Source: Miscanthus floridulus (Eukaryota > Streptophyta > Magnoliopsida > Poales > Poaceae). From it: a stretch of DNA of 64,000 bases. The stretch's first letter is position 1. Each line of letters starts with the position of its first letter. The stretch is taken from positions 105,263,158 to 105,327,157 of the forward strand of contig NC_089587.1 in assembly GCF_019320115.1 (NCBI RefSeq). The letters are read 5' to 3'. The position numbers and the translations under genes were made by a program. The notes beneath the pieces were generated by a model. That model did no database searches and was not told where the DNA came from. It saw nothing but the letters and a program-made list of their open reading frames with translations. Below are positions 4,370 to 44,819 of this stretch, in pieces.

Positions 4370-4377
4370 TATATATA
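4370..4377 (-). promoter_or_regulatory. TATA box of the solo copia LTR
   Basis: A TATATATA core inside CTATATATAG, read on the minus strand. The related LTR at 57011-59456 has TATAAATA in the same relative position, just beyond the GC-rich repeats. Confidence 0.55.
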
Positions 4378-4424
4378 GAGCCCCAATCAAATAGAGCCGT
4401 TATACCCCTTCACTGGGCAAAACG

Positions 4425-5473: not shown

Positions 5474-5478
5474 CAGGA
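5474..5478. repeat. Target-site duplication CAGGA (right) of solo LTR
   Basis: Exact partner of 3465-3469. Confidence 0.9.
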
Positions 5479-6081: not shown

Positions 6082-6258
6082 AATGCTCCAGGGCTTGCCT
6101 TTCAGAAAAGATGAAAGTTGGTGATCGGGGCACTCAAGAACTTCTTCGTTGACTCCTTCAGGGGCCTGCACCTCCTGCTCTTGAGCTTGCTGCTACTCCT
6201 CTGGAAGTACTGGCTCGAATTCCAGAAGTGTGACTCCCTCTGGAACACCTATTGCATG
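6082..6258 (-). other. Conserved short open segment inside the LTR of B
   Basis: Read on the minus strand this encodes HAIGVPEGVTLLEF near 6258, then after one TAG stop (6193-6195) EQEVQ, ECPDH and KGKPWSI. The 3' LTR of C has the same order (HAIGVPKGVTLLEF, QEVQ, ECPDH, KGKPRSI at 42611-42792). In the best-aligned blocks the differences fall mainly at third codon positions, some at first and none that I saw at second, as expected for a segment once under coding constraint. The function is unknown. The segment ends in a GGCAAGCCC motif that could also be a GC-type splice donor. Confidence 0.5.
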
Positions 6259-9200
6259 CATATGCATAGTATAAGAATCATGCATGCACACGAGATGGAA
6301 GGTGATGATGAAATGTACAGCCATGTATGAATGGACGCATGAAAGACATAATGATACAAGATTAACCTCGATTTTACCAAGTAGGTGCATATCTCTTTTA
6401 GAAAACAAGAACGGCACACTCACCAAGTTCTAATAACCTAAGATAAAGTTGTTCATCTTCAGTAAGAGGTCTAGCACCTGCAACTAACAATTTATCTTAA
6501 TTAGCCTAGCATCTAAATCATCGTGTCAACTCATATAAAGCAAATAAGTCATTCACTGCACTCAACAGTTTTTAGACTGCAAATAGTAGCTACAAGTTTG
6601 ATCCATAACTGGAGTTCTACAGATCCAAATGCCATGATTTAAGACTTTCTAGAAAGATTATAAAATTGTCTACAACTTTCATTTAATCACCAAAGACTAA
6701 TTCAAACTCAAACTAGGTCACCCAGACTGATCTTGCAAAACTGTCCGTGAATTCCAAAGAGTAGGCAGTTGGGAGTGCTGTCTTCCAACTGAGATAACTC
6801 TCAAACTACTAGGCCAAATGTCTTGAAATTTTGACACAAGCTATATAAACAAGTCTCCTACCACTTTGTTACTGACCAATTTCATAGCAAACATCAAATT
6901 CACCAGTTAATCTGCTTAACTCTAAAATCTATCTAGAAAGTCACTATAATAGAATTATAGTGAGAATAATATTTCATTACATACACGAATAGCACCATGA
7001 GCACTACCAATGTTACCAACAGTTAACATACATCAAATGAACATAAGCAAACATAGTGGCCCTTCCTAAATAAATTATTTTTATTCCTTTATTAATTTAT
7101 TTAGATAATTAGGTTAAATAATAAACACATATCCAAATTATACAGAAAATTCTACAAAAATTACAGTATCTTATATATGTGTCCAATAGGCTACTACACA
7201 AATTTCACATCATTTGAACAAGTATCACATCCTACACAAAAATGACAAGGCATAAAGGCTTAAAATGGCATAATTAGGAAACCCTAGTGAAAAGTGTCAA
7301 GCAATAGATTTCATATTTTTCCTAGCATCCTTAAGGTACTAGGATACTCCCCACAAAATTTCATGGTCATACGATTCCTAGATAATTTATAAAAATTCAC
7401 ACAAGTATCAATCAATGATAAAAGGAAAATCTATAACTCAAAAACCATACATGCAATGACTCTCAAATTTTTACCAGAGCATCCACTAAGCAAGAATAGC
7501 TCACCCACAAAATTTCATAATTTTTGGAGCACAGAAACTCAAGGTATAATTTAAACAAGTTTGCATGCATTTAAAAACACATTTCAAGTTCCTATTTTAT
7601 TCATCCAAAATTTCCACTTCAAGTGCTCATGTCATATTTTTATTAAATACTAGACTTCACTGTGATTCTACCAAATTTAGAATCACTCCATTTGGATCTA
7701 CCAATTTGGAGATACAAAATTCACAAAACAGCATCAAAATCTGAAATAAAGAACTAGCTTCACTAGCTTGAATCACTGGCGCATGGGACCCACCGGTCAG
7801 GGGACCCCACATGTCAGCGGCGCCAAAACAGAGCACGGCGGGGAATCAGCGCGGGAGCAACGGAGCTCGCCGACGGCGGCTTCTCCGGCGAAACCGACCC
7901 CACCACGGCGTTCACCTCACTCCCCCCGCATCGTTTCATACCGGTGGCTAGCCTAGAGGTGCACGGAAGGGGCTCGTCGCTGGCCATGGCGGCTCAGCGG
8001 CGCGGCATGACGGTGCTCCGGTGAACCCCAGCGCTAGGTGCCCAGACAAGGTGCGCAAAAGCTTCAAGGGACCGAGGCGGACCTCACTACGCTACTAGCA
8101 CTGGATGTGGTGAACTAGTGGAGTGCGGCCACATGAGGTCACCGGTGCGGCCATGACGCACGGCGGTGCGCGGCCATGATCCAGCTCGGCTGGACCGGCA
8201 TTGACGGAAACGTCTACGCTAGAGCAACTACACATGATGGAGAAGATGATGTAGCAGAAAAGGGACACGGAAGAGCGCCGGTCAGCAAGTTCCACAGCGA
8301 GCCCGCACTCTGGCGAGGTGCCGGTCATGGCGGGGGTTACAGGATCGGCCAAAGGACCCTCACCTAGCCATGGACACGACTGCGGAGAGCTCGAGCGAGT
8401 AGAGCAGTGTAGGGCGCTTCTATGTGCGTGAGTGATTTCTCAGGGGCTGGCCAGTAGAGGAGCTACGCGATGGCGATGCTAGCTCGGCGGCAATGGTGCG
8501 ACGATAGCTTTGCTCTCGGTGGCTCAGACGCGCGCGAGAAGGAGATAGAGAGCAAGGGCGAGTGGGAGGGCAGGCGGGCACGGCCTTCAAGCGGTCACCA
8601 GTGGGCAGCGGCGTCAGGCCAGCCACAGAGCGTGGTGGCCACGCGGCGGCCGGTGTCTGAGCCCGGTCGGCACAGTGCCGAGTTCAAATTTTCAGCATTC
8701 AGTCGCCGATCAACCGACTGACAACGCCTTTTCATCGCCTCCAAACTCAAAAACGGTGGCGAGTTAGCAATTTCTTCTTGAATCAAAGTTGTAGAGCTAC
8801 AATAGGGCTACAACATTGCTTTAGCAAGTATCATCTAACTCTCAAACAATCACAAGTTACATCAAGCCAAAGTCAGCTTCAATAAACTGTAAATGCAATC
8901 CAGACTTAGAAATTTTTCAAGTGTAGAATCAGCCCCCAAATCTGACTTGTGGGCCATGTTTGGGACTGTTGCAAACATTTTCATGACTTGACCTCTAAAC
9001 AAAGTTTGTTCCATATATAATTTGCTACAACTTTGCTTTAGGTTGCTTAGACATGCAAACACTCTAGGCTGTACTTTTTAAGTGGTCAAACAACAGAGCC
9101 CCATGGGTCAACACAAGTCAAGCCATTACTTGGAAGTGTAATTAGGCAATATGGTCAACATGAACATTGTTCCTAATGACATTCTAAGTATAGCTAAGTT

Positions 9201-9401
9201 GTTTAAGAGGACATTTGACACACATTTGCATAGACCACACATGAGCACACACAATTGCTAGCATAAAACCAAGCAGTTCAAATAGAAACACACATGAAAT
9301 GATAACATTCATAATGGTATGATGCTTATGAATGAGATGATGATGCACATGCTCATGTGATGCAAGTGTTTTAGTGCAACCATAACACTGAGGTGTTATA
9401 G

Positions 9402-9412
9402 CCCTCCCCCTT
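9402..9412 (-). promoter_or_regulatory. Polypurine tract of element B
   Basis: On the minus strand AAGGGGGAGGG lies immediately upstream of the 3' LTR, the position of the plus-strand DNA synthesis primer in LTR retrotransposons. Element C has the near-identical AAGGGGGGAGGG. Confidence 0.85.
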
Positions 9413-12400
9413 ATAAAAAATCTCGCCCTGAGATTTGAAAAGTGTACCATTTTGAATAAAAGGTAGGGTATACATCCTTCAAATAATCTTCTCGTTCCCA
9501 CGTTGCATCACTTTCACTACCCTGGTTACTCCACATAACCTTGTAAAACTTGACCACACGGTTCCGGGTTACTCTCTCTCTCTTGTGTCGATAACCCGCA
9601 CTGGCCTTTCTTCATAGGATAGATCTGATTTCAACTTGATATTTCTCAGTGAAACTCTTTCTTCGGGAACACGGAGACATTTCTTCAATTGAGATACATG
9701 AAAAACATTGAAGATAGCTCTCATCTCGTAAGGTAACTCTATCTTGTAAGCTACATTCCCACTCTTCTCTATGATCGGATATGGGCCTACATACCTAGGT
9801 ACAAGCTTCCTCTTTACACCGAACCGCTGCACACCTTTCATCGGTGATACCTTCAGATAAACATGATCACCTACTTCAAACTCAATGGGCTTTCTTCTTT
9901 TATCAGCATAGCTTTTCTACCTAGCTTGAGTGGCTTTCATATGTTTTTGGATAGTACGGACTTGTTGTTCAGCCTCTTCAACAAAATCAATGCCGTAGTA
10001 TCTCCTTTCTCTAGATTCCACCCAGTTCAAAGGAGTTCTACACTTGCGACCATACAACGCTTCGAACGGGGCCATCTTGATACTTTCTTGATAACTATTA
10101 TTATAGGAAAATTTAGCCAAGGGTAACCACTTATCCCATGAACCTTTGGATGATATGACGCAAGCTCTTAACATGTCTTCCAATATTTGATTCACCTGCT
10201 CCGTCTGTCTAGAGGTTTGTGGATGATAAGCAGAACTTCTAACTAAGTTGGTCCCTATCATCTTATGCAATTGTTCCCAAAAACGAGCGGTGAACTGAGG
10301 TCCTCTATTAGATACAATGGTTCTAGGAACACCATGGAGATGTACTATCTGATTAAAATATAACTCAGCATAGTCACTTGGTCGATAGTCAACTCTAACT
10401 GGTATGAAATGAGCAGACTTTATTAAACGATCCACTATTACCCATATGGAATTAAAATTCTTTTGGGTAGGGGGAAGCCCAACAATAAAATCCATACTAA
10501 TCTCTTCCCATTTCCATCCTGGTATAGACAATGGTTAGAGAAGTCCAGTAGGCTTCATGTGAATTGCTTTGACTCTACAACAATTGTCGCACCTTGCAAC
10601 ATAAGCTGTGATTTCTTTCTTCATCTTGGTCCACCAAAAGCGAGATTTCAAATCTTGATACATTTTGCTACTTCTCGGGTGGATAGATAACTTGGATGAG
10701 TGAGCTTCTTCTAAGATTTGGTTTCTAAGCTCTTTGTCCTTCGGTACTACAAGTCTGTCCTTAAACCATACAACACCCTTCTCATCAATACGAAAGTATT
10801 TTGTCTCTTGTTCCTTCATCTTTCTTTTGATGTGGAACACACCCACATCGGTTTTCTGAAGCTCGATGATTTTACTTTCCAGAGAGCAACTAAGGGTAAT
10901 ACTGTGCAACACAGCAGGATGTAATAGATGTACCAAATGATAATCTGCTTCCAAGAGAGAATTGTAGTGAGATTTCCTACTCAAAGCATCAGCAACAACA
11001 TTTGCTTTACCCAGATGATAATGGACTTCCAAATTATAATCTTTAATCAACTCTAGCCATCTTCTCTATCTCATGTTCAATTCTAGTTGAGTGAAGATAT
11101 ACTTGAGACTTTTATGATCGGTATAAATATGGCACATATTACCGAGCAGGTAATGCCTCCAAATCTTCAAAGCATGAACCACAGCAGCTAACTCAAGATC
11201 ATGAGTTGGATAATTGGCTTCATGCTTCCTTAGCTGTCGTGAGGCATAGGCGATAACCCAACCTTCCTGCATAAGGACACATCCTAAACCAGTACCTAAT
11301 GCATCACAAAACACATCAAAAGGTTTCTCGATATCAGGTTGCGCCAAAACAGGAGCTAATGTCAACAAGGTCCTTAAAGTGCAAAAAGTAGTCTCACACT
11401 CCGGAGTCCAAACAAACTTCACATCTTTTTGAAGCAACCGGGTCATGAGCTTGGCTACCTTAGAGAAATCCGAAATGAATCGATGATAATATCTAGCCAA
11501 ACTAAGGAAACTTCTAACCTCATGTACTGAGGTGGGTGCTTTCCAATACATGACTTCTTGCACCTTAGATGGATCAACCGAAATCCCTTCATCGGACAAC
11601 ACATGACCTAAGAAAGGTACTTTCTTAAGCCAAAACTTATATTTACTGAACTTGGCATAAAGCTTATGCTCTCATAGCCTGGATAAAACAACTCTCAGAT
11701 GCTCGGCATGTTCTTCAGCATTTACAGAAAAGATCAAGATGTCATCAATGAAGACAACTACAAACTTATCCAGTTCCTCCATGAATACAGAATTCATTAG
11801 ATATACGAAGTAGGCAGGAGCATTGGTCAGACCGAAAGACATAACTAGATACTCATACAACCCATATCTGGTGGAGAAAGCGATCTTAGGCACATCCTCC
11901 GGTCTAATCTTTATCTGATGATAATCAGATCTCAAATCAATTTTGGAGAATACCTTTGCCTTAGACAATTGATCAAACAAAATATCAATACGAGGCAGTG
12001 GGTACTTGTTCTTGATTATGACAGCATTGAGTGGACGATAATCCACACACATGCGCAATGACTTGTCCTTCTTCTTCACAAATATGGCAGGACAACTCTA
12101 GGGAGAAGCACTAGGTTGGATAAGACCTTTCTCTAACAGATCTTGGAACTAAACTTTAAGCTCTACTAACTCATTAGGCGGCATCCTATAAGGCCTCCTA
12201 GAAATAGGTGCAGTGCCTGGCACTAACTCGATCTTGAACTCGATGTCTCGATCAGGCGGTAAACCAGGTAAATCATCAGGAAATACATCTAGAAATTCAC
12301 ACACTACTGGAACGTCCTCAATTCTCAAGGTCTGGATAGCATTAACAGTGTTGTGGAGTTCTAGCTCTCTGGGAAGTGGCACAAGGAAAGCCTCCTTACT

Positions 12401-12769
12401 GATAGGATCCCTCAACATCACGACCCTAGTGGAAGTATCAATGAGCACTCCATGACCGCTCATCCACTTCATTCCCAAGATTACATCTATCCCTAATCCT
12501 AGCAAAACTACCATATCGGCCATAAACACTCATCCCTCAATTTCGATACTCACACCCAGCACTATTTGATTAGTCGAAATATTACTTCCAGCTACACTAA
12601 TGCAATAACTACCCGAGGATACTGTAATTACCTTCTGATTGTATTTCGATGCAAAAGCTGGACTCATAAATGAATGCGAAGCACCAGAATCAAATAGTAC
12701 AACTGTCGGATGGTGATTCACAAGGAACTTACCCACAGTAACCACCTCTCCAGAGGGTATCTTAGTCAT
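9410..12769 (-). pseudogene. Element B pol: protease, RT, RNase H, integrase, chromodomain-like tail
   Basis: This is the enzymatic half of the B polyprotein, in the same frame as gag from 13825 down to 9569. Visible in order: protease active site DSGASHSF (about 12690), RT fingers ([11 protein letters not shown], about 12040), RT catalytic motif FIDDIL (about 11740), RNase H start ([14 protein letters not shown]) and [11 protein letters not shown] (about 11110), integrase zinc finger ending CDNCCRVKA (about 10570), catalytic-core pieces MDFIVGLPP, SNRGPQF and HPQTSRQTEQ, and the PRYVGPYPI motif (about 9790). SNRG replaces the usual S-D-R-G, so a catalytic Asp is lost. After a GA-repeat slip at 9569 another frame carries a chromodomain-like tail (KVMWSNQ, ATWERE, YPTFYSKW). 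Several TAG stops confirm a dead copy. Confidence 0.9.
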
Positions 12770-13825
12770 GTTGGTGTAGTTAACATGTCATTGATGAGCA
12801 CCCGAATTCCCTTGCTTCTGATGGTTCTTCTAAGGATAGGGGCAATTCTTGGACCAATGACCTGTCCTGCCACAATTCTAGCAGGGCCTATTAGTTAGCA
12901 GAACAAAAGAATTCCCTGGTCCTATGGTGCCCTTTGGAAGAGGTACATTAAATGCCTTCTTGAAACCAATCTCTGCCTGATTCTTCTTCTGTGGCGGCCG
13001 GTACCTAACGGCTGTAGTTGGTGGGCAAAACTAAGTCTTCGTTACTAGAGCTTTAGCCTGAGAGGCACCTGCCTCAAAGGCCCTCTTGCGATTTTTGGAA
13101 GCAGCATGGACATTATTGTTATTCTCTTAAGTGAGAGCATCGCTTATGAACTCATTGAAAGTGACACTCTTGTTGTTCCCCATGGACTTCATCAGTTTGG
13201 GACTAAGCCCTCTCTTAAAGCTAGCAATTCTCTTTGATTCAGACTCAACGAATTCTAGAGCATACCTTGCCAGATGATTGAAGGCATGAAGATATTCAGA
13301 GAGTGTCTTGGTGCCTTGCACCAGCTTCATAAACTCATTGTGCTTTATGGCCATCAACCCGAGAGGAGTATAATGACTCTTGAAAGCCTCCTAGAATTGA
13401 TTCCACATGATCTAGGCATTCTCTGGTAGGGTGGACCGATAATGTCACCACCATATACCTGCTGGTCCTTGTAGCTGATGCGAAGCATACTCCGCCTTCA
13501 TCTGCTCCGTCACTCTGAGCAAACAGAACTTGTGCTCAAGCGTGTTTAGCCACTCTTCTGCTTGGAGCGGCTCTTCAGCTTCCTTGAATACGGGCGGCTT
13601 GGTATCTTGGAATTCTTTGAAATCACTAAACTGGTTAGGCTCTGGTCCTTGTCGTTGATTGCAGCCATGTGCTTGATGCTGGGCCAGGGTACGCATAGCA
13701 TCCCCCAACGCACGCTGACCTTCCATGAGCATGGACAACAGATCAGACGGTGTAGGCGGTGGTGGCAGTGGAAGATCATCATCACCACTATCCCCAGCAC
13801 GGCCTGAATGCAGATTGTGCGACAT
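12770..13825 (-). pseudogene. Element B gag
   Basis: Capsid/nucleocapsid part of the B polyprotein. The ATG at 13825 directly follows a CTGCAG sequence, as in C. It opens MSHNLHSGRAGD, has a proline run, then the gag core (KPPVFKEAEEPLQAEEWL, ASHQLQGPAGIWW, FMKLVQGTKTLSEYLHAFNHLARYA, SFKRGLSPKLMKSMG). Near 12870 is a CCHC zinc knuckle whose second residue is a TAG stop where C has tryptophan (PC-stop-NCGRTGHWSKNC). It is in frame with pol, so gag and pol formed one ORF. Several TAG stops show it is inactive. Confidence 0.88.
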
Positions 13826-14176
13826 CTGCAGAAGTGCATTTGTGAGTAATGATGGACGATGTCAGATACATTGCAGATGAATTATAGAATTATGACAAAC
13901 TGAACTTATTGGAGAGATTAATTTCATGCAATAAATAGAGGCACAATAATTCATCCTCATAACATCGCCAATAACATTACTCTGCACATTCTCGCGATGC
14001 ATATGCTTACATGCCAAATTTTTGCCAACATCAAAGCTGGACTTTTATTTATAGCTCACATCAATATGGAGTCAACATGCAAATTCCAGAGATTACATCC
14101 AAGTCTCTAGCTGAAATTAAGTTATGTGTTCTTCCAAAATAAAACAAAGTGCATCTAGCTTAGTGCTACAGCCAAA
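13826..14176 (-). other. Spacer between extra ORF and gag of B
   Basis: 351 bases, AT-rich, with no supported coding potential. Its gag-proximal end reads CTGCAG immediately before the gag ATG, which resembles a splice acceptor. Confidence 0.4.
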
Positions 14177-15208
14177 CTACACATCTTCATCAGTGTCAGC
14201 ATCGATCACTTCTTCACCATCTTCATCCTCGATAGGGATGAGTTCCTCCTCTTCTTCATCTTCTTCATCTTCTGGTACTGCGATGACATTGGCATCTAAT
14301 TCCATGCCATCATCATCAGCGAAGATCACCTATGGTCCTCCCACCACGGGGTACACAGGAATAGGATGAGGAATCGGATTGAGCTGATTGTTGAGACGGT
14401 GAACATCAATCTGCAGTTTTTCAATTTGGCGGAGGAGTTCATTCTCTTGGATTTCCACCCGAATTCCTGTCATGATCCTAGCATTGTCCCTGGTTTGAGC
14501 TAGACGGAGTGCGTCATCTCGCTCACGAGTTAACTGCATGATTTGATCTTGGTTAACATCTCTTTCTCTAACAACACTTATGAACTGCTGCCTGCGGTTT
14601 TCCAAAGCACTCATAAGACCACCGATATCATTTTGAGTTGTCCTAAGCTCCTTACCATTCTTGCATGCATGCTTCTTCCACGTGAGCTGTTCCTTTAGTG
14701 CCTACCGAAGGGCTGTCAAGGCACCGACATAAGTGCCCTGGTGATCCTGAAACAGCTTCAGAACAGCCATCATAGCACTCATGACAGGCCCTGAGCTCTG
14801 TGCCCTTTCTGCCTCAGTCATGACCAAGGGATCATCCTCAAAATTCAGCCACTCTACCTTAGATAGAGCTACTCGAGGAATGGACTTAGCTAGTCCGGCG
14901 ATCAACTCGTCACCAAACTCCTGACATATATCAAGTAGAACTTCCAAAGCTGCCATCTGTGCCCCTTCCCAAGGGGTCCGTCCATCGGCTTCGATGCTCT
15001 AGCCAAGCCACTAGGGTCTGTTTGCGTGAGATGGGACAACCACCTCAATGTCATACCACAGCATCCCACATTCAGCCTCTCCTTGTTTCCAAGTATAACG
15101 AGGTGGCTCCGCATATCCCATGGAATGTAGCACTCTCCATAGCAGGGTAGGAGTGCCAAACATGTGCATAAATGTGTCGCTCCTAGGCGGTAGTGCTGGT
15201 GCGGCCAT
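14177..15208 (-). pseudogene. Extra ORF upstream of gag in element B (coiled coil plus acidic tail)
   Basis: One unshifted frame of 344 codons runs from the ATG at 15208 to the stop at 14177, broken only by four in-frame TAG stops (15011-15013, 14999-15001, 14702-14704, 14330-14332). The N-terminal third (MAAPALPPRSDTF, SMGYAEPPRYTWKQGEAE) matches no family I can name. The centre is heptad-like and charged (residues about 198-290, QIMQLTRERDDALRLAQ, ELLRQIEKLQIDVHRL), typical of a coiled coil. The C-terminus is strongly acidic and ends EDGEEVIDADTDEDV. The C-terminal half is homologous to the extra ORF of element C; the N-terminal parts differ. The ATG follows CTACTACAG, a splice-acceptor-like sequence. 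The function is unknown. Confidence 0.75.
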
Positions 15209-16005
15209 CTGTAGTAGCATTGCAACTTGGGTGTGAGAGGATTACCTTATAGGATGAGAAATCTATAACAAAATAAATAAAGATAAGGGAGGGAGTAATG
15301 CAAAAATGTAATGGCATGAGTAAACATGATGCATGCATGTTCCGTACGTCCTCATGAATCTTAAGAAAAATTTAAAATTCTAGAGACATAGACGGTGGCA
15401 TACATACGTTCTCTCATATACGTATCTAGTCGAGCTACACGTTGCGTTGTTAGTGTACCTACAGAAAATTTCATTGCAGCCCATTCCAACAAAAGAAATA
15501 AGCACGCAATGAAAGCAGTAAACTAAGATACTCTCCATATATACATCCCCAGATATATATACTTTGGTATCCAAAGCTACCCGATAGATACACCCGCAAT
15601 TAAGTACCTTCATATGTACATGTGTGCAACATGTAAACTTTCCGGTAACCACAACTAACTCTCCCCTAGATCGACAGTTGGACGGTCATGCTCTCACAAC
15701 TCACTTTACCTGGGCGTAGAGGCAATTGATCCATACATTACCACCCAAGCGGATGGCATCCATACAATAGCACGCCATATGGACGACGAAATAAAATGAA
15801 AACAATTACCCCCAAAAGTCATTACTTAAATAAGCCACCTGAAAGTCCTTATTTGGGCATAGAGGATATGACCACTAGCACACTTAAGTAAAATTTCAGA
15901 TTTGAACACACCTATATATAAGTAGCTATAAGTTGTCAAAACTAATTTTCACAAACAAAAACCTTTGTTTTAAATACACATATGACATGTTTAATGTTGA
16001 ATCTA
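15209..16005 (-). other. Leader of element B
   Basis: About 800 bases between the primer site and the extra ORF, AT-rich and without a convincing gene. Its sequence is recognisably similar in layout to 33469-34208 of element C (shared motifs such as the Ccaaataagga-like stretch and the gtacctacag-like stretch), so it is part of the element rather than host DNA. Confidence 0.55.
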
Positions 16006-16017
16006 GCTCTGATGCCA
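16006..16017 (-). promoter_or_regulatory. Primer-binding site of element B
   Basis: TGGCATCAGAGC on the minus strand, one base from the initiator-methionine-tRNA type site, two bases inside the LTR end at 16020. Confidence 0.85.
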
Positions 16018-16019
16018 GC

Positions 16020-16841
16020 TGTAACAGAACCGACCAATTTATAAGAGCACAAGTACGAAAGCAATCACCGGAGTGATCAAACCGTCATACTTGAACCCAT
16101 ATAAACCCGGTAGTCAACTGAAACCACGAAGGATTTCAAACCAACTTGCATACAACCAAGATCACAGTAATTCAACATAACAAGCCACATGTTACATCCA
16201 TTTCACAAGTAGTTCACAAGTACCTCATACATCAGAGTACACATAGTTATTACAAAACGAGTTCACAAATAGCGGAAGCAAAGTAGTTTGAGACCATCAC
16301 ACACACTTAGTTCAAATACAAGCCAGCACCATAGTCATATCTAGCAAAAGCAGTAAGATAAGATAACATAGATGATCATGCCCATGATCTAGTCTTCATC
16401 CCCCGCAGGGTGGACACAATACTTGCAGTAGCCGTTATAGAGCACGTCATCTGCAACAAGGGAGAAATAAACCCTGAGTACGAGAATGTACTCAGCTAAA
16501 CTTACCTGTCGTAAACCAGAAATAAATGACACCAAGGAGTATGCAAGGCTTTATCGGTGGATCTTGCTTGACAACCATTTTGCATAAAAGCTTTAGTGAT
16601 ATGAGAGCATAATTTAGATTATGAGTAAGCAGCAAGTTATCAATATTAACCTGTCAACTAGATTAGCACCTATACTAGAGCAAGCAATTGATTTAACTTT
16701 AAACATTAGTAACCATATCCGGTATAATGTTGTATCATCATCATCATCGATTTAACCATCAAGTTCCATTAAGTGCATCTATGTTGCCGCTGCTCAGTCA
16801 AGTTCTCACTATCTGCGAGAGATGGTGATTCGAATCGATTC
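16020..16841 (-). repeat. 5' LTR remnant of element B
   Basis: Begins TGTAACAG next to the primer site and aligns without gaps over 822 bases to 2563-3384 of the 3' LTR (about 33 mismatches by eye). It stops abruptly at 16841 in the middle of a GAATCGATTC segment; the remaining roughly 4 kb of LTR is missing. It is followed by a 7-bp filler (16842-16848) and an inverted copy of its own first 68 bases. Confidence 0.85.
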
Positions 16842-31087: not shown

Positions 31088-32586
31088 ATACACCCTCTTA
31101 GTACTCTAAGATCTATGCAGACAGGTACACTTTGCCGTAGGTCTATCGGATTGATAAATCTTGTAGATGGCTAAAACCCTGTGGTAAGGAAGGGCTAGCA
31201 CGGTACCGAGTCAAACCATTTGAGTTTAGTTAATTTCATAAAAAAGGCCTAACAATATTTATATATTAAATATGTGTCACTAGCTAGATTCATCATAAAA
31301 AATATTTTTTAATAGTATACATATTTCATGTTATAAATATGCAATTTAAAATATTTTTACATTTTTGGAGGAAAGTTTCCTGTGATCAGTTTCATCAAAA
31401 AAAAAGTTTCCTGTGATATGCGAAAACAAGGTGATCCAATTTCACCTGTGGACCTAGTATTTGCAACTTGTGATTTCGGGGAGATGTTCTGCGGCTTTAT
31501 TCAACTTCTTGTTGTGAATCTCTAGTTCAAATTACATATTTTTTGGGTTTGTTTGAATGCATTTTGCCTTTTCTCCAAAACTCTCTATAGCTGAAATCTG
31601 TGAAAACCGTCGGATCTGTCTGCCCGTCTGCACTATGAAAATATGGTCATCCGGCATGCATACCAAGGGATCTAGTTTTCACTATGTTTTAGCGTTTTCC
31701 CCCATTCTTTGCTTCTTTGGCTTCCGCACCTAGCTTCGTTTCAAGGGTCAGCAGATACGTTGTTACTACGTGATCTTGGCATGAGTTAGAAGAGAAAAGT
31801 GTTTGATTGGATTTGGCATATACATCAAGTTATTCCTTAGAAAGGAATTTTTATCGACTACCATTCACTACCGTCTAAGCTGTGTTTTCTAGTCCTTCAC
31901 GACCATTTTGAGTTAGCCATGAGGTCCGCCGTTGTGAGATCATACCGAGAGAGTGGTTGCCATGCCGTGCAGCCTTGCTCGTATCTCCCGCGTGGGCAAG
32001 GTTATCCTTGCCTAGCTACTGGGCAAGATCGTTGGACAAACCGAGTTTCATGCTTGCTACGTACTAAATAGTAAATAGGCATCTTTGCCGAGGGAGGTGA
32101 TGCATGCAAGGGACCAAGCAAGCCTTCAACTCCTTGCAAGTACAACGTATAACTTGTTGTCTCTATGTGAGAATCAGTACCGTCCATTTCAAATTTATAA
32201 ATACCATTTTGGATTCTATGAAGTTTGGAGGATTTTGATCTGTAACAGTATTTTTGTCTAGATATAGTGTATATTCGATATTACGTGCCATTTCATTATT
32301 GTATTTCTAATTTTAAATTTCAAAGAGACACTTTAAATACAAATTAATCTTGGAACTGTAAATAATAAAAACAATCCACTGATCACAGTATCAGAAAAAT
32401 CAACTCTCACCTCCACAGTAGGGTCGAACTGGCATGAATACGGATGGAATTCGAATGATCTTAAACAGAGATCCATATTTTTGGTTAGATACAGATACAA
32501 ATCAGATATCTCAATTTAGTTCATAGCATTTATCCATTTTGGAAGTACAAAATTATTATACAAGTAGGTATCAAAGTATGCCAGGG
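31088..32586. other. Unassigned AT-rich sequence
   Basis: About 1.5 kb with no supported gene, RNA or transposon end. It abuts the truncated 5' LTR of element C without a target-site duplication, so the left end of C has been lost together with an unknown amount of flank. Confidence 0.3.
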
Positions 32587-33454
32587 TACCCTTGCAAAGC
32601 ATGCCAGGGTGAGAGTTAGGAATACCCCCTCAGCTGAGTTGTAATTCGATTCGAGTCGCCGTCTCTCCCGGTTAGTGAGAACTTGACGGGCTTATCTCCA
32701 AAGTAGATACACTAAATAACATAATGGTTCGAAAATGATGATATGATGATGACAGTCTTATTATACCTGCTATGGTTAATATTGTTTGCTCCTAATAAGT
32801 GAGTGCTCTAGTACAGGTGCAAATCTAGTGGGCATGTAAATGATGATAAACTTGATGCGAAGTTTAAATTGGTTACTATATTCATAAGCTCTTTTATGCA
32901 ACTGTGTCCAGCTAGCCCACCTCATAAGCCTTGCATGACCCTTGGTGTCTTTTATTTCTGGTTTTGACGGGTAAGTCTAGCTGAGTACCTTCTCGTACTC
33001 AGGGTTTATCTCTCACCTATTGCAGATGACCAGTTCTACTTTGGTTGCTGCAAGTATTGCCTTCTCCCGGCTGGGGATGAAGACTAGACCGTTGGGCATG
33101 GTCTCTACTAGTTCTCGTACCTGAAGATGCTTTTGTGGGACATGACTAAGATCTGGCAATGTATTTGAAACTATGAAGTTATGTACTAAACTATGTTGCT
33201 TCCACGAACTTGAACTTGGTTTGTAATATTTTATTTGAACTCTGATGGATGTAATCCGAATGCTACTTGTGAAATATTGTAACGAATGATGTGTTGTGTT
33301 GAATCATTACGGTCTTGGTTTGTATGTCGAGAGTTGGTTGAAATCCTTTGTGATTTCCGAACTACCGGGATTATGGGAGCTTAATACAGGAATTTGATCA
33401 CTTCGGTGATTGTTTTTGTACTTACGTTCTTATGATTTGGTCGGTTCTGTTACA
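32587..33454 (+). repeat. 5' LTR fragment of element C
   Basis: Starts abruptly with TACCCTTGCAAAG, which matches 43951 in the 3' LTR, and ends CTGTTACA two bases before the primer site. About 3.8 kb of LTR is missing at the left. Confidence 0.85.
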
Positions 33455-33456
33455 GC

Positions 33457-33468
33457 TGGTATTAGAGC
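33457..33468 (+). promoter_or_regulatory. Primer-binding site of element C
   Basis: TGGTATTAGAGC, one base different from the initiator-methionine-tRNA type site, spaced two bases (GC) from the LTR end as in A and B. Confidence 0.85.
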
Positions 33469-34208: not shown

Positions 34209-34796
34209 GATGGCCGCACGAAACGCACTGCTCGCAAGTCCGCCGGAGGCAGGGCGCCTCGTCATCGGTTAGCTCCTCGTGAGCCCCGTCCGGAGCCTAC
34301 TGAGGCAGAAAGGCTGAGGGCAGAGCTGGCCCTAGTGACTGCTGAGAGGAGTGCAACTCAGCAGCGTTTGGAGGAAGTAACACAGGAACGGGATCAAGAA
34401 ACCCTGGAGGTTCAGAGGAGGTTGACAGTTGCTCACCGCAACTATGAACGCATGTTGATTCACGTGCTGAACCAATGGAATGAAGCCTAGCACGAGGAGA
34501 ATGTGTTGAGAGCGCGACAGGTAGAACTCGGGCAGCAGTTGGCAGCTGCCGAAGAGTACAATGACCATCTCCATAAGGAGGTTCACCTGTTACACAATCA
34601 GCTTCACCCTCTTCTACCACCTGATGATGAGGATGAGATGGGCTCTGGTGTCATCATGGCTGAAGTTGATGATGACATTGAGGTTAATGGACCTGAGGAC
34701 GTTCCACCTAAAGAGGAGGAAGATGAGGAGTTAGAGCCTGCTAGTGATGAAGATGGAGGAGAGATCTTCGACACTAACTCCGAGGACGATGCGTAG
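34209..34796 (+). pseudogene. Extra ORF of element C with a histone H3 tail-like N-terminus
   Basis: A single frame of 196 codons, broken once by TAG (34488-34490) and ending at 34794-34796. Codons 3-22 (34215-34274) read RTKRTARKSAGG then RAPRHRLA, which matches residues 2-21 of histone H3 at 15 of 20 positions, keeping K4, R8, K9, S10, G12-G13 and R17. Then follow a proline/charged linker (PREPRPEPTEAERLRAEL), a heptad-rich region (residues about 35-140) and an acidic tail ending DEDGGEIFDTNSEDDA. The C-terminal half is homologous to the extra ORF of B. The only ATG at the start (34210) is in a different frame, so the H3-like frame needs either an upstream exon or has lost one base. The function is unknown; it is not a histone gene because the histone fold is absent. 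Confidence 0.75.
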
Positions 34797-35210: not shown

Positions 35211-36227
35211 ATGACTTATAATCTTCGTCGCGGTCGTAGCATGGGAGATGAGGAACAACCACCTCCTCCACCGCCCACACTAGCTGAGCTAATGTAGACA
35301 GTCGTCGAAAGTCAGCGCATGCTAGCTAAGGCTATGCGCCAACTGGCTAACCGTGATGACCGACATGTCCGCCAGAGACCCGAGCCGAACCAGTATAGCA
35401 GCTTTAAGGACTTCATGGACACAAAGCCTCCTATCTTTCGAGAGGCAGAAGAACCATTACAAGCTGATGAATGGTTGAGTACGATAGAGCAAAGGTTTGG
35501 ATTGCTCCGCTTGACAGAAGGTATGAAGGCCTCATATGCAGGACACCAGCTCCAAGGCCCTGCAGGCATCTAGTGGACCCATCATAGGACCACCTTCCCT
35601 GCAAACGTCGAGATAGTTTGGGACCAGTTCCAGGTAGCTTTCAGGGGACATTTTATCCCTCCTGGTCTCATGGCCATCAAGCATACCGAGTTTATGAAGC
35701 TAACCCAAGCCAACAAGAGTCTTAATGAATACCTCTAGGCATTTAATAACCTGGCGAGGTATGCTCCGGAGTTTGTTGATACTGACGCCAAAAAGATAGC
35801 TAGCTTCAAGAGGGGACTTTCCCCTAAACTGATGAAGTCTATGGGCAACTACAAGTGTGTCACCTTCAATGAGTTTATCAGTGACACCCTGACTCAGGAG
35901 AATAATGATAAGGTATATGCTGCTTCCAAGACCTGTAAAAGAAACTTTGAGGCAGGTGCTTCTCAGTCTAAAGCACCAGTGGTATCCAAAACCCAATATC
36001 GTCCACCCAATGCTAATATCTGGTACCGCCCACCTCAGAAGAAGAATCAAGCTAAAACTGGTTTTCGCAAGGGGTACACAATTTCCTTGCCAAAGAATAC
36101 CTCTGGGCAGGGCAGCTTCAATGTCCCACCAGCTAATAGGCCGTGCTGGAACTGTAACCAGCCTGGTCACTGGGCTAATAAGTGTCCCTATCCTACCAAG
36201 CAGAATGCTTAGGGAAATGTCCGTTAG
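35211..36227 (+). pseudogene. Element C gag
   Basis: Begins MTYNLRRGRSMGDEEQ plus a proline run, then the gag core (DTKPPIFREAEEPLQADEWL, GHQLQGPAGI, FMKLTQANKSLNEYL, SFKRGLSPKLMKSMG) and a complete CCHC zinc knuckle CWNCNQPGHWANKC near 36144-36185. In-frame TAG stops lie at 35295, 35571, 35736, 36210 and 36225. The frame runs on into the protease, so gag-pol was one ORF as in B. It is homologous to 12770-13825 (minus strand). Confidence 0.9.
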
Positions 36228-39200
36228 GGGCGTGTTCACTACACTACTATGGAGGAAATTCCTGCTGGTGAAGTGGTCACCGCTGGTAAGTTCCTTGTTA
36301 ATGATCACCCTGCAGTTGTGCTCTTTGATTCGGGTGCTTCGCATTCCTTTGTGAGTTCTACTTTTGCATCTAAGCATAAGATGAATGTGATTACAATTGT
36401 CAAGGGTGGTTATTGTATTAGTGCTGCTGGAAATAATATCCTAACTAACCAAGTAGTTAAAGATGTAAAGATTGAGATTGGGGATCGAGAGTTCCTTACG
36501 GATCTTGTAGTTCTGCCGGGGGTAGGAATCGTCCTAGGAATTAAGTGGATGAGCGGGAATGGAGTATTGATCGATACATCAACCCATGTGGTAATGTTGA
36601 GGGATCCCGTGGATAAGAAGGGTTTTCTAGTGTAGTTACCTCGTGATATCGCTATCCACAATACAGCCAATGCTACCCTAGCCAAAGCCATTGAAGATAT
36701 ACTGGTTGTTTGTGAGTTTCCAGATGTCTTCCCTGATGACTTGCCTGGATTACCTCTAGACCATGAAGTAGAATTTAAGATAGAACTCATTTCGGGTACG
36801 GCTCCTATTTCTTGAAGGCCCTATAGAATGCCGCCCAATGAGTTGGCTGACCTGAAGAGTCAGTTGAATGGGCTATTAAAGAAAGGTTTGATTCGGCCTA
36901 GTTATTCTCTTTGGGGTTGTCCGGCTATCTTTGTGAAGAAGAAGGACGAGTCTCTGCGCATGTGCGTGGATTATCGTCCCCTTAATGCTGTTACTATCAA
37001 GAACAAATACCCTCTTCCTCACATCGATATTCTGTTTGATTAGCTCTCCAAAGCTAAGGTATTCTCCAAGATCGATTTGAGGTCCGGCTACCATCAGATC
37101 AAAATTTGTCCTGAAGATATACCTAAGACAGCTTTCTCTACTCGTTATGGCTTGTTCGAATACCTTATCATGTCCTTTGGGTTGACAAATGCTCCGGCAC
37201 ACTTTATGTACCTGATGAATTCAGTATTCATGCCAAAATTGGATAAGTTTGTCGTCGTGTTCATTGATGATATCCTTGTATATTCTCAGAATGATGAAGA
37301 ACATGCTGAACATCTGAGAATTGTTTTAACTCGATTAAGTGACAACTAGCTTTATGCTAAGTTCAGCAAGTGCGAATTCTGGTTGAACAAGATACCTTTT
37401 CTAGGTCATGTGTTATCTGGAGATGGAATTTTGGTTGACCCTACTAAGGTGCAAGAAGTCCTAGTGTGGAAGGCACCTACTACGGTCACAGAAGTCCGAA
37501 GTTTCCTAGGTTTGGCTGGCTACTATCGTCGCTTTATCCCGGATTTCTCAAAAATCGCTAAGCCCATGACTCGACTACTTCAAAAGGATGAGAAGTTTGT
37601 GTAGACTCCGAAGTGTGAAGAGACTTTCCACACTTTGTGGACCTTACTAACCTCTGCTCCTGTATTGGCACAACTTGACATCGAGAAGCCTTTTGATGTC
37701 TATTGTGATGCATGTGGCACCGGTTTGGGGTGTGTTCTTATGCAGGAGGGTCAAGTCATTGCTTATGCTTCGCGCCAGCTTCAAAAACATGAAGTCAATT
37801 ATCCTACCCATGACTTAGAGCTAGCCGCGGTTATTCATGCCCTGAAGATTTGGAGACATTACTTGCTAGGTAATGTGTGCAACATCTATACTGACCATAA
37901 AAGTCTGAAGTACATCTTTACTCAACCCGAGTTGAACATGCATCAATGACGATGGTTAGAATTAATCAAAGACTACAACCTTCAAGTGCACTACCATCCT
38001 GGTAAGGCAAATGTGGTTGCTGATGCCTTAAGCAGAAAGGCCCATTGCAATTCCTTAGTTAGTGAAGACTTTCATCTAGCACACCTCCTTCATCCTACAG
38101 TACTCCACAATATTACTGTGGATTGCTCTCTTAGAAGTTGAATTATCAAACTCTAGAAGACTGATGTGGGTGTGTTTCATATCAAGCGAAAGATGAAAGA
38201 TCAGGAGACCAAGCACTTTAGGGTCGATGACAAAGGAATTCTCTAGTTTAATGATAGGCTTGTAGTACCCAAAGACAAAGAACTTAGAAATCAAATTATG
38301 GCTGAAGCCCATTCATCTAGATTGTCCATCCATCCTAGTAGCAGTAAAATGTATCAAGATCTCAAGCTGTATTATTGGTGGACCAAGATAAAGAAAGAAA
38401 TCGCAGCCTACGTGGCAAGGTGTGATAACTGTTGCAGAGTCAAGGCTATTCACATGAGGCCCGGATTATTGTAGCCACTCTCTATTCCTGGCTGGAAGTG
38501 GGAAGAAATTGTCATGGATTTCATTGTTGGATTACCCAGTACCAAAAAGGGTTGTGATTCCATCTGGGTTATTGTAGATCGTCTAACTAAATCTGCTCAC
38601 TTTATTCTGGTCAAGTCTACCTATCACCCTCACAATTATGCTGAGATTTACTTTCAACAAGTGGTACGTCTCCATGGTGTACCCAAATCCATTGTTTCAG
38701 ATAGAGGACCGCAATTCATGGCTCGCTTTTGGGAGTGCTTACATCAGAATCTTGGCACTCATCTAATCCGTAGTTCTGCCTATCATCCGCAAACATCAGG
38801 ACAGACTGAGCGTGTTAATCAAATTCTTGAAGACATGCTTAGAGCTTGTCTTATCTCTTGCAAAGGCTCTTGGGAGGAATGGTTGCCTCTCGCTAAATTC
38901 TCTTATAACAACAGTTATCAAGAGAGTATCAAAATGGCTCCTTTTGAAGCTCTTTATGGCCGCAAGTGTAGAACTCCTTTGAACTGGGTGGAACCCAGAG
39001 AAAGAAGATTCTATGGTATTGATTTTGTAAAAGAAGCCAAAGAGCAAGTCCAAACTATACAGAAGAATATGACTGCCGCTCAGGCTAGACAAAAGAGCTA
39101 TGCTAACAAGAGAAGAAAACCTATTGAGTTTGAAGTAGGTGACCATGTTTATCTAAAGGATCCCCTATGAAAGGAGTAAAGCGTTTTGGAATTAAAAGGA

Positions 39201-39607
39201 AGCTTGAGCCTCGATATGTTGGACCTTACCAAATTATCGAGAAAAGTGGAAGAGTAGCCTATAAACTCGATCTACCACATGAGATGGGAGCTATATTCCC
39301 GGTATTCCATGTGTCCTAGCTGAAGAAGTGTCTTCGTATTCCCGAGGAAAGAATAGCAACGAGGAGAACCAACTTGAAATCTGATCTTTCTTATGAGGAG
39401 AAGCCCATGCAAGTTCTGGATACTCAAGAAAGAGTGACTCGTAGGCAAGTAGTTAAGTTATACAAGGTAGTTTGGAGTAATCATAGTAATCGGGATGCAA
39501 CATGGGAGCAGGAAGATTATCTAAAGGAAAATTATCCGGCTTTCTATATTAAATGGTACGCTTTCCAAATCTCGGGACGAGATTTTTCTAAGGGGGGAGG
39601 GCTGTAA
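36228..39607 (+). pseudogene. Element C pol: protease, RT, RNase H, integrase, chromodomain-like tail
   Basis: In order: protease DSGASHSFV (about 36327), [13 protein letters not shown] (about 36960) and catalytic FIDDILVYS (about 37260), RNase [14 protein letters not shown] (about 37700) and [11 protein letters not shown] (about 37890), integrase zinc finger HSSRLSIHP to CDNCCRVK (about 38310-38440), catalytic core MDFIVGLP, SDRGPQF and HPQTSGQTER (38514-38815), a GPY motif (RYVGPYQI, about 39210) and a chromodomain-like tail (YKVVWSNHSNRDATWEQEDYL, split here only for reference to 39455-39525). Stops: TAG at 36633, 37041, 37347, 37602, 38154, 38244, 38472 and 39317; TGA at 36813, 37947 and 38139; one frameshift near 39165. 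The final TAA (39605-39607) lies inside the first bases of the 3' LTR. Confidence 0.9.
39590..39601 (+). promoter_or_regulatory. Polypurine tract of element C
   Basis: AAGGGGGGAGGG, one base before the LTR start at 39603. It is also translated, as the pol frame runs through it. Confidence 0.85.
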
Positions 39608-42601
39608 CACCATAGGTGTTTGGCTTCCATAAAATTGCATTTCATTTTATAAACATATGCATCATCTATGTCATCATGCCATTGTCACTGAAACATACAT
39701 ATGCAACATTCGCAAATTCTGTTTGTTTCACACTTGATTTGCTTGTGAATGGTAGTAGTACAACATGTGAATGCAACATGAGTCTCTCATACCTTGAAAC
39801 ATGGCAACATGGTAGGAATGTGGCAAGTTAAAATTGCAACAAAAGTAATGAAACATGTGAAACATGGAATTGCAACATTTGAGTGAATTGCTTGTTTTGT
39901 TGCTTCATCACATGTGATCATTAGAAATTGGTATAGCACTTGTGTAAAGTGGTTGATTATGGTCTAATACACCTTAACTACACTTAGGGTAATTGTTGGG
40001 ACATTGTTCATGTGGATCAAAATGACAAAAATGCCCTCAAGTGGAGGTTTGACTTTGAATGACCCTTAGAGTGACACTGTTTGACTGATTCAAAAGTCCA
40101 ACTTAGAGATCTTGCATGGATGTGCACTCTTTACCAAAGTTGTAGCTAATTTATCAAGGAACAAAAGTTGTTTTATGATTAACTCATGAAAATGTGTGGA
40201 ACAGCCTCAAACATGGCCCACAAGTCATTATTGATGGTGGATTCAACACTGAAAAATATTTCTAAGTCCTAACTGCATTTTCAGTTTGATTGAGCCAACT
40301 TTGGCTTGATGTAACTTCTGATCCATGGCGAATTAGATGATGGTCCTTGAAAAGAAGTTGTAGATGGATGGTAGGCCTATATTTTTCATGTACACAGTTT
40401 TTGCAATGGATCAATGGTTTAGCCGTGTTGACACGTTGAAGTCGCGCTGTCAGGCGGTTCAAGTCATCTGAATGGGAACTACAGTAACTGACAGTCTTTA
40501 GAAAATGAATGCCGCATGTTTGCCACCCATCGCCGGTCTCTTGCTCATGCTGCCACGCGCCGTGGGCATCCTGGCGCTGCTGGCCATGCCTTGAACTCGC
40601 ACGCGCCTGCCCGAACGAGTCGTCAGCTCCATTTGCACTCCTTCGCCTCCACCGCGCGCAGCGACAAGCCACAGCAGCTCCTCCATTTCCGACCGAGCGT
40701 CGCCATCACCTTGCGCGCTCGCCACTGCAAAAACGCACCAGCCATTTTGCCCCTAGCTTCGCCGTGATCTCCTCTACCACCTCCACCTTTCAGTCGGTTC
40801 GTTTGAAGCTTGGTAAGGGCGTATTCGCCATTTCTTCCACCGCTGTCATGGCGAGACCTCGCCGGAGTTGGTGCTCCACGTGGCCAACTGCCACCGTAGC
40901 CTTCCCATCCTCTCTTTCCCTTGCGCTAGGTCCTGTGAATGCTACTGAGGCTCATAGGGTCACCCACTAGGGCCGTGACGCCGTCGCCTCGCCGGAGCCG
41001 ACCAAGCCGTGGCCGTGCGCCGCCATGGCCGTCGCCACCCCCTTTAGCTGCAGTAATAGCTGAAATTGATGGCACCGTTAGATGCACATGGGTGAGGCGA
41101 ACACCATAGCACCGCTGGACTCGCCGGAGATGTCACCGGCGACGAGTTGCGCCGCCGTCTTTTCTTCCTCCCCTGCCTGTCTCTCTATCTCGTGGGGCCC
41201 CTTCGTCAGTCGCTGAAGCCGAGGCGGGAGCCAGTGTGGGCCGCGCCGAGTCTGGGCCGTGCCAGCGCATGCTTCGTAGGCCGCCGTGTCCTTCGGGCCG
41301 GCCCAGCAGCAGAGTTAGGGTTTCAAAAATTGTTTTGTTTTATTCTTTTCATAGATTTATGTATAGATTCAAAAATATGTATCTCCTAGTTGGTAGATTC
41401 ATATGATGTGGTTCCAATTTTGTTGAGTTCATGATAATGTCTAGTTTTTATTAAAAATATAACTTATGCCATGTTCTGTTATGAAAAATGGAGTTGCTAA
41501 TTATCTCTTTTAATCATAAAGGAAATAGGGGTAATTATATCTTTTTCTATGTAGCTCCAAATGGCATGAAATTTTTATGGTGTACTGCTCATATCATGAA
41601 TAGCTTGTAGTTAAATTTTCATACATTTTGGACACTGTATGTAGGAGATAGAAAATTCTCTTGTTTGCATGGATGGATCTTGTGTGAATTTTCATAATTT
41701 TTCTATAGATCCAGTAAAGGTAAAATTTGGTGAGTGCTATTCTTATGCTAGAATGATGCTAGGAAAAATGTGAAATCTGTTGCTTGACACTTTTCATTAG
41801 GATTTCCTAATTATGCTAGAAATAGACATGCCACCTGTTATTTTGGATACAACAAGTTCTGCTTGCCTAATGGCTTTGAAATTTTTATGGTAGTCTATGT
41901 GAAGCATGATATAGCTACTGTAATTTTTGTAGATGTTTCTGAATAGTTTTACTATATATTGCTTTAATCACCTAATTAACTAAATAAATTAGAAAAGGGC
42001 ATTAAATAATTTATTTAGAAGTTGGCACTATACTTTCTGATGTTCCTATGGTATGTGCAACAAGTTGGTAAACTTGGTTTGGTCCAATTATGCTTTTGCA
42101 TCATCACTAAATAATTAATTTAGTAAACTTGTCATTTCTGGACAGATTCTATGTTTACCTAAATTCGATTTGGTTAACGTAAGAATCATGCTTTGATGTT
42201 TACAAATGATTTGTAGAGAATTTCATAAGCTTTCCAGAATGTCCTCTTGCAAGTCATTTGAAATTGTAGAACTCTTGTTGTGATTAAATTAAGGAACTGC
42301 TCGTTTGCATATGAAACTTTAACTGTTGATTTAAGTATACCTTTACTATTTCCTAAGCTTGTGGTAATGTTCCTAGGTGTTAGTCCTTTAACTGAAGATG
42401 AGCATCTTTATCTTAGGTTATGCAAGCTAGGTAAGTAGATCTCGTTCTTCAAGTTAAGTTAGATACATGTTTTAAAGTGATTTGAATAGAGCTATTCTTA
42501 ATCGGTAAACGAGTGTCCAGTGATGTTTTCGTTAAACACTTACTGTGATTCATTCATCATGAGCATCATGTCATTCCTTATGCATCCATGATATTTATCT
42601 T

Positions 42602-43395: not shown

Positions 43396-43948
43396 GACCC
43401 ATGTCACCCTGGGCATTCAGTCAGACCGAACCGATCGGTTCGGTTCCTCGGTCATTCGGTCAGTTCGGTCATCAGAAACCTAGGACCGATCGGTCTTTGC
43501 AAAAAACGAAGACCGAGGAAGTTCGGTCTCGGTTAGTTCAGTTCGGTCTCGGTCACGACCGAACTAACCGGACCTGAGTAGCAGCCACAAATAATAGCAG
43601 AATCTATAGCAATTTTCAACAGCATGCTTGCTATTTGAAGGCAAAAAAATAACAACACAATATATAAAACAAACCACACATTATTATGACAAGTTCTAGC
43701 ACACAACTTTCTCAGTTCTCACAAATCACAATTACACATTACGAACAAAGTCTACAGAACTACGGTCAGTTCGGTCACTTCGGTTAACCGACACATATGA
43801 CCGAACTTCTATCGGTTACTTCGGTTAGTTGGGAGCCAGGACCGAACTCATGACCGAACTTTTCGGTCTCGGTCTTTTCGGTCTTGGTCTCGGTCTTTTT
43901 GGTTCGGTCTTCGGTCTTCGGTTAATTATGCCCAGAGTGAGACCCATG
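43396..43948. mobile_element. hAT-like non-autonomous DNA transposon in the C LTR
   Basis: The 537-bp insertion (43404-43940) has ends TCACCCTGGGCAT and, inverted, TCACTCTGGGCAT, and is flanked by a perfect 8-bp duplication GACCCATG (43396-43403, 43941-43948). An 8-bp duplication and short inverted repeats fit hAT. Both subterminal regions are packed with GGTTCGGTC/GACCGAAC motifs in both orientations, the kind of clustered sites bound by hAT transposases. The middle is AT-rich and has no open frame. Confidence 0.82.
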
Positions 43949-44819
43949 GCTACCCTTGCAAAGTATGCCAGGGTGAGAGTTAGGAATACCCCCTCAGCTG
44001 AGTTGTAATTCGATTCGAGTCGCCGTCTCTCCCGGTTAGTGAGAACTTGATGGGCTTATCTCCAAAGTAGATACACTAAATAACATAATGGTTCGGAAAT
44101 GATGATATGATGATGATAGCCTTATTATACCTGCTATGGTTAATATTGTTTGCTCCTAATAAGTGAGTGCTCTAGTACAGGTGCAAATCTAGTGTATAGG
44201 TAAATGATGATCAACTTGATGCGAAGTTTAAATTGGTTACTATATTCATAAGCTCTTTTATGCAACTGTGTCTAGCTAGCCCACCTCATAAGCCTTGCAT
44301 GACCCTTGGTGTCTTTTATTTCTAGTTTTGACGGGTAAGTCTATCTAAGTACCTTCTCGTACTTAAGATTTATCTCCCATCTGTTGCAGATGACCAGTTC
44401 TACTTTAGTTGCTGCAAGTATTGCCTTCTCCCGGCTGGGGATGAAGACTAGACCATTGGGCACGGTCTCTACTAGTTCTCGTACCTGAAGATGCTTTTGT
44501 GGGACATGACTAAGATCAAGCAATGTATTTGAAACTATGAAGTTATGTACTAAACTATGTTGCTTCTGCGAACTTGAACTTGGTTTGTAATATTTTATTT
44601 GAACTCTGATGGATGTAATCCGAATGCTACTTGTGAAATGTTGTAACGAATGATGTGTTGTGTTGAATCACTATGGTCTTGGTTTGTATGTCGAGAGTTG
44701 GTTGAAATCCTTCGTGATTTCCGGACTACCGGGATTATGGGAGCTTAAGTACAGGAATTTGATCACTTCGGTGATTGTTTTTGTACTTACGTTCTTATGA
44801 TTTGGTCGGTTCTATTACA

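Follow-up and report, generated by a model that had tools for sequence, protein, structure and literature searches.

What brings the tail of histone H3 to the start of a retrotransposon protein, and what could it do there? Plant retrotransposons are silenced via H3K9 methylation, and the question is raised by a locus of Miscanthus floridulus that lies in a stretch of 64,000 nucleotides, analyzed as a whole and called the window here. The original prediction had claimed that twenty consecutive codons in this stretch read like H3 residues 2-21 with five listed changes, and this is exact: the translation of 34215-34274 on the forward strand, RTKRTARKSAGGRAPRHRLA, is identical to H3 residues 2-21 at 15 of 20 positions, the changes being Q5R, T11A, K14R, K18H and Q19R. 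When the 64 kb window was searched by tblastn with a 41-residue H3 query, this segment was the best of four matches in all (E 3.6e-7), and the second best match had an E-value of 0.034.

The host element and its ORF0

The segment is part of an element with the following features, all on the forward strand:

32581..33454: 5' LTR, 3'-terminal part, 95.9% identical to 43944-44819
33457..33468: primer-binding-site-like sequence TGGTATTAGAGC, seen in the sequence, which we take to be of the tRNA-Met type
34210..34212: ATG at which other copies begin ORF0, here in another frame than the tail and directly after an AG that may be a splice acceptor, seen in the sequence
34215..34274: H3-tail-like segment RTKRTARKSAGGRAPRHRLA (H3 residues 2-21), by translation, 15/20 identity
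34215..34487: first open piece of ORF0, 91 codons, with H3-like tail, Pro-rich linker and first part of a long helix
34488..34490: TAG stop that cuts ORF0 in the window copy, seen in the sequence
34491..34796: second open piece of ORF0, 101 codons, with helix end and acidic C-terminus, stop at 34794-34796
35211..36212: interrupted gag region, including a CCHC zinc knuckle (PF00098, E 1.1e-6)
36228..36635: retroviral-type aspartic protease (PF08284, E 1e-26)
38475..39170: integrase core (PF00665, E 6e-6, not reaching the curated cut-off)
39152..39721: frame-shifted SH3-like end of the integrase with a weak chromodomain (PF24626, E 1.6e-20; PF00385, E 0.0071, below the cut-off)
43944..44819: 3' LTR, 3'-terminal part, pairing with 32581-33454

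Zinc-knuckle gag, protease and integrase thus follow each other in gypsy order, with the integrase match being below its cut-off. The shifted frame of the integrase end contains the motif RDATWEQE, which is near the Tekay chromodomain motif EEXTWEXE as given in PMC3350952, the PF00385 match itself being weak. The tail-bearing host is a Ty3/gypsy chromovirus-like element. ORF0 is the sense open reading frame at 34215-34796, between the LTR part ending at 33454 and the gag region that begins at 35211, and the tail therefore does open an extra reading frame of a gypsy element, as had been claimed. The gag ATG directly follows a cag and a T-rich stretch (35200-35213), like that of ORF0, which hints at alternative splice acceptors for two messages.

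As an extra sense reading frame upstream of gag, ORF0 resembles the ORF0 or 5' additional ORF of Retrosat2, RIRE3, RIRE8 and other elements of the Tekay clade, the function of which is given as unknown (PMC3485330, PMC11728184). This likeness to the Tekay-clade ORF0s is one of position, whereas similarity in sequence was found here only with the ORF0 of a second element in the window.

The window copy of ORF0 is broken by the out-of-frame ATG and the TAG stop, and open copies are present elsewhere in the genome. Since the ATG at 34210 and the tail are in different frames, the window copy cannot make the tail protein from it; when the tail frame is read upstream, a stop is reached at 34155, with no ATG between this stop and the tail.

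The second element lies on the reverse strand:

2561..16841: second related chromovirus-like element, with LTR parts at 2561-3384 and 16018-16841 that are 96% identical
14177..15208: ORF0 of the second element, starting with MAAPALPPRSDTF..., without H3-like tail and interrupted by several stops

Its gag-pol stretch is 73.6% identical to that of the tail-bearing element, and its ORF0 (15208-14177) has a different, longer N-terminus together with a similar acidic C-terminal half (tblastn of the C-terminal half, E 7e-11). As the ORF0 of this element lacks the tail, the tail is not a feature of every ORF0. In both window elements, the alignment between the two LTRs covers no more than roughly the final 0.85 kb of the upstream one (32581-33454 and 16018-16841), and the remainder of the upstream LTRs may have been lost or interrupted. 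The window also contains a LINE-type reverse transcriptase with a zf-RVT end at 24055-25977 (PF00078, PF13966) and, at 52285-53377, a gypsy-pol-like stretch (67-75%) followed by tandem repeats with 88-base spacing.

Tail-bearing copies and the predicted protein

With the window ORF0 as protein query (its stop written as X), 188 relatives were found among 5.8 billion sequences, and the best 120 of these relatives were used; two N-terminal searches, overlapping with the ORF0 search, yielded 43 and 163 relatives (best 120 of the 163 used). Among the 137 proteins listed by the ORF0 search and the first N-terminal search, 45 carry the tail together with its Met, and in the listed matches the others begin further downstream than the tail. 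K9 and K4 are each found in 44 of the 45 tail-bearing proteins. No relatives were confirmed in viral and GTDB contigs. One protein (P0134), which joins a tail-bearing ORF0 to a sequence (QAKTGFRKGYTISLP) that the window element has in its gag, seems to represent a deletion copy.

In the genome to which the window belongs (2.68 Gb), the ORF0 query, which includes the tail, gave 7321 first-look candidates; the 150 that were scored all align from query residue 1, 2 or 3. From lists ranked in this way, 88 loci were taken, 78 of them distinct, and this sample is therefore biased toward the tail. In 76 of the 78 distinct copies the tail begins with an in-frame ATG (MARTK...), in 60 the first 94 codons are free of stops, and in 45 the frame stays open up to the acidic end. 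A tail-blind sample was obtained by querying with the C-terminal half of ORF0: among 9799 candidates 150 were scored, 20 of these were picked by hand, roughly one in seven down the list, and at each locus 141 bases at the expected place of the tail were examined. Tail and in-frame ATG are present in 19 of these 20 copies; the twentieth has both ends of the tail and an internal deletion. The tail-blind copies are more decayed, with R2 replaced in 8 of 19, T3 changed to M in 3 and S10 changed to F in 2 (hand count). The original prediction had left room for a one-off accident, of which copies without the tail or with the tail out of frame would be the sign; with in-frame starts in 76/78 and 19/20 copies, the H3-like tail is not such an accident and is carried in frame by many copies of the genome.

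What kind of protein does the tail belong to? AlphaFold2, run with a 37-sequence alignment, predicts residues 1-31 to be disordered, residues 32-134 to form a helix with high confidence, and residues 135-192 to be a disordered acidic end. No histone fold is thus predicted in ORF0, which appears as one helix of about 100 residues plus disorder, and Pfam lists none either, in agreement with the claim that no histone fold follows the tail. The long helix probably forms a coiled-coil dimer, which would show two tails side by side.

AG directly precedes the ORF0 ATG in 78/78 copies, and in seven of them it does so as TAG. Another in-frame ATG is present 36 nt upstream in 72/78 copies, and its use would bury the tail; the TAG form would stop a reading from this upstream ATG. 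Together with a pyrimidine-rich stretch and with the cag before the gag ATG, the AG suggests that splicing places the starts of the ORF0 and gag messages at these sites. ORF0 would then be translated from the ATG after the splice-acceptor-like site, the protein would start with M-A-R-T-K as H3 does, and N-terminal processing would expose A-R-T-K, so that the mature protein would begin like mature H3.

Descent from histone H3

The resemblance to H3 extends beyond the window copy and beyond chance. When the divergent member P0139 was compared by phmmer with 177,635 distinct PDB sequences, the best match was histone H3 (E 2.2e-5), and among the best 60 of 130 matches 59 were named H3 and one was named Cse4. 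A profile of 35 hand-picked members again found histone H3 in the PDB (E 4.2e-9), and in a single comparison by BLASTP, P0139 matches H3 at 19 of 27 positions from the Met (E 2e-10). In contrast, a Pfam scan of the 35 members with E up to 0.1 reports no histone family, and neither do the Pfam scans of the window; the tail may have been overlooked because of this.

P0139 is not the only divergent relative. In a divergent group from jgi metagenomes, 49 of 51 listed jgi rows were checked (P0010 and P0122, of the window type, were left out), and 48 match the tail pattern. T11 is found in 42/48, Q19 in 48/48, K9 in 45/48 and K4 in 43/48 of these proteins, K14 is found in 3, and the identity to H3 residues 1-22 reaches up to 19/22, which is the case in 3 proteins. 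P0081 and P0141 of this group, both outside the hand-picked set of 35, have N at the place of K9. In a subfamily formed by P0130, P0171, P0182 and P0189, K4 is changed to R (MARTRTT...KSTGGR) and the K9 position is kept. Descent from the end of an H3 gene is favored by the contiguous match from the Met and by the H3 states T11 and Q19 in the second group, and we therefore regard it as very probable that the ORF0 tail descends from H3. A selected mimicry that converged from unrelated sequence, or a chance resemblance, would have to account for an in-register match over 22 residues from the Met, some of them at positions for which no reader role is known, for the PDB matches, and for the occurrence of T11, Q19 and sometimes K14, as in H3, in the divergent group; such an origin is highly improbable, even if the similarity to host H3 genes at synonymous sites, described below, is only marginal and in this respect agrees with it.

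Can the capture be traced in the DNA? In seven of eight intron-containing H3 genes of the host, which we take to be H3.3-type, the first coding stretch has 72 nt, i.e. 24 codons, before GT, and the similarity of ORF0 to H3 spans the first 22 codons. A cag directly precedes the ATG in two of the intron-containing host H3 genes and in 71/78 ORF0 copies, but it is also present in the related element without tail and hence is no proof of exon capture. The copy L006 shares 50 of 66 nucleotides with intron-containing H3 genes, which is its best identity, vs 47 with the best intronless gene. In comparison with back-translated controls, three typical copies gave P 0.07 for an exact 15-nt run shared with host H3 and P 0.02-0.04 for nucleotide identity, and L006 gave P 0.08 and 0.16 in the first such test. 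A 23-nt exact run of L006 (P 0.00015) was considered as proof of capture and discounted, as it rests on T11, which in that lineage is possibly a CpG change and not the old state, and this again fits a resemblance that arose by convergence. At the DNA level, the evidence that a host H3 gene was captured is thus marginal. The suggested capture of an H3 gene end is likely by the protein evidence, whereas the DNA evidence is no proof of it. If the element did capture the N-terminus of an H3 gene, the tail would have replaced an N-terminus of the type seen in the related window element, rather than the reverse. At another locus, L047 (C10:108206776-108206931), a 222-residue open frame matches H3 residues 7-58 at 63%.

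Constraint on the tail and its possible use

The original prediction had stated that the ARKS motif with K9 and the K4 context are retained, and so they are: in the 78 distinct copies of the sample whose query included the tail, K9 is present in 78/78 and K4 in 77/78, and both are present in 19/19 tail-blind copies. K9 is among the best-kept residues but not alone, as G13 and L20 are kept about equally; G12, G13, R14, H18, L20 and A21 are each found in 78/78 copies. K14 and K18 are accordingly replaced in all 78 copies of the biased sample, and K14 is found in one of the 19 tail-blind copies. Position 5 varies (R, L, T, S, M and others), with R5L in 21/78 copies, and all replacements seen in at least 5 of the 78 copies are of CpG type, except R/L at the Q5 position.

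Neutral evolution across copies had also been named as a sign of an accident, and for ORF0 this does not apply. In the first 93 codons after the Met, singletons comprise 64 N and 29 S changes, vs 20 N and 30 S among variants in at least 5 copies (p = 0.0013), which indicates that ORF0 was under purifying selection before the copies inserted. The tests restricted to the tail are weak: singletons are 12:7 and common variants 5:8 in the 78 copies (p = 0.28), with 11:4 vs 3:6 in a smaller set (p = 0.09), and the pairwise pN/pS of 54 copies is 0.40 in the tail vs 0.32 in the rest of ORF0. In 79 aligned copies, common non-CpG variants occur at 1/42 sites of codon positions 1+2 in the tail vs 4/21 sites of position 3 (p = 0.039), and in the ORF0 body at 35/344 vs 44/172 sites (p = 1.3e-5). 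The corresponding counts are 41/376 in the 5' flank and 17/159 in the 3' flank; the contrast of tail positions 1+2 with the flanks (1/42 vs 58/535, p = 0.11) is limited by the fact that the noncoding flanks vary no more than positions 1+2 of the body.

Could the captured H3 start simply be a convenient initiation segment that is passively carried under the general constraint on ORF0? The pN/pS of the tail, no lower than that of the body, the tail-only frequency test without significance, the CpG-type decay of Arg codons in many copies, and a linker that is more alike between the groups (86%) than the tail would all fit this view. The near fixation of K4 and K9 in both genome samples, their retention in most members of the divergent group, the codon-position contrast within the tail, and a between-group identity of 81% in the tail vs 71-77% in the helix (linker and helix values likewise from the hand-picked set of 35) argue against it, and we consider passive carriage quite improbable. 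It is rather probable that selection maintains the tail because of a function that the tail itself has.

Which function could this be? Candidate partners are the H3K9 writers and readers of plants, such as SUVH-type methyltransferases, CMT3 and ADCP1. An H3 N-terminus that was captured and then kept as a mimic of the H3 tail, centered on ARKS and K9, is the reading to which we give about even credence. The disordered tail would be displayed from the long helix, probably as a coiled-coil dimer and thus as two tails, with the acidic C-terminus at the other end of the protein, and the ARKS motif around K9 would be offered to host H3K9 writers or readers. For the element, the outcome could be a decoy that weakens its silencing, or a tether to heterochromatin. 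That the tail does engage K9 writers or readers is a realistic possibility, if one that leans to the doubtful side. The most far-reaching version is tentative and more doubtful as a whole: a plant chromovirus lineage would carry a captured and selectively kept H3 tail on a coiled-coil rod, the host would methylate it at the K9-equivalent, and paired false H3K9me tails would divert or exploit the loop of H3K9me and DNA methylation. Any such mimicry would be partial, given the replaced K14 and K18 in the 78 copies of the biased sample and the subfamily with K4R. The chromodomain of the element itself might be thought of as a reader of the tail, but this is less likely, as the aromatic cage of the chromodomain is reported to have been lost in chromoviruses of seed plants (PMC6317226, PMC3350952).

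The main rival to a mimicry centered on ARKS and K9 is a role in nuclear import or nucleic acid binding, in which the H3-derived tail would act through its basic and disordered character, as accepted by importins, and its identity to H3 would otherwise not matter. In H3, too, the tail serves as an import signal, and Kap123 recognizes the nuclear localization signals of H3 and H4 (PMC5677370); K14R keeps the charge, and in a sunflower Tekay element the protein of the 5' additional ORF has a predicted nuclear localization signal (PMC11728184). However, a plain basic signal would not require that the uncharged G13 and L20 and largely also T6, S10 and G12 are kept while position 5 varies, nor would it go along with the loss of positive charge by K18H and, in 21/78 copies, by R5L. 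We therefore regard the import role as unlikely.

For the preferred reading, a mimic of the H3 tail, the nearest functional analogies are viral histone mimicry (PMC10208167) and the H3-like tail of shugoshin Sgo1 (PMC9253516). Influenza NS1, adenovirus protein VII and SARS-CoV-2 ORF8 are likewise non-histone proteins with ARK- or ARKS-type motifs that resemble the H3 tail; their motifs are described as short, whereas the ORF0 match spans 22 residues from the initiator Met (PMC10208167). In the consulted text of this review on viral mimics, the words plant and retrotransposon occur 0 times. The title of another study, "SARS-CoV-2 ORF8 does not function in the nucleus as a histone mimic" (PMC10833455), calls for caution, as a motif is not a function. 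In Sgo1, an H3-like N-terminal tail is likewise followed by a coiled-coil region, and this tail uses an H3-reading pocket, the BIR domain of Survivin; it differs in that Sgo1 is a cellular protein, that the H3-like part named is Ala1-Lys2-Glu3-Arg4, and that the reader is another one (PMC9253516). As to the acquisition and retention of host-like coding sequence, orchid Ty3/gypsy elements that captured an m6A demethylase domain are comparable, with an enzyme domain there and a histone tail here (PMC9289625).

The original prediction knew of no description of such a tail in plant retrotransposons. Likewise, no description of an H3 tail on a retrotransposon protein was found in CC-licensed PMC papers by titles and abstract starts, and the word histone is absent from the consulted text of papers on ORF0 or additional ORFs (main texts of PMC3485330 and PMC11728184, and PMC7264820). 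The H3-related tail is thus real and conserved, and the open-licence papers searched gave no description of it for a plant retrotransposon; its proposed use as a mimic is a strong hypothesis. If this is true, an abundant element family with an H3 tail would represent histone mimicry by a genomic parasite, and ORF0 proteins would gain a first testable function. The copies may moreover be viewed as a natural experiment on the residues of the H3 tail, in which K4 and K9 are mostly kept, K14 and K18 are mostly lost, position 5 is free, and one subfamily has changed K4 to R.
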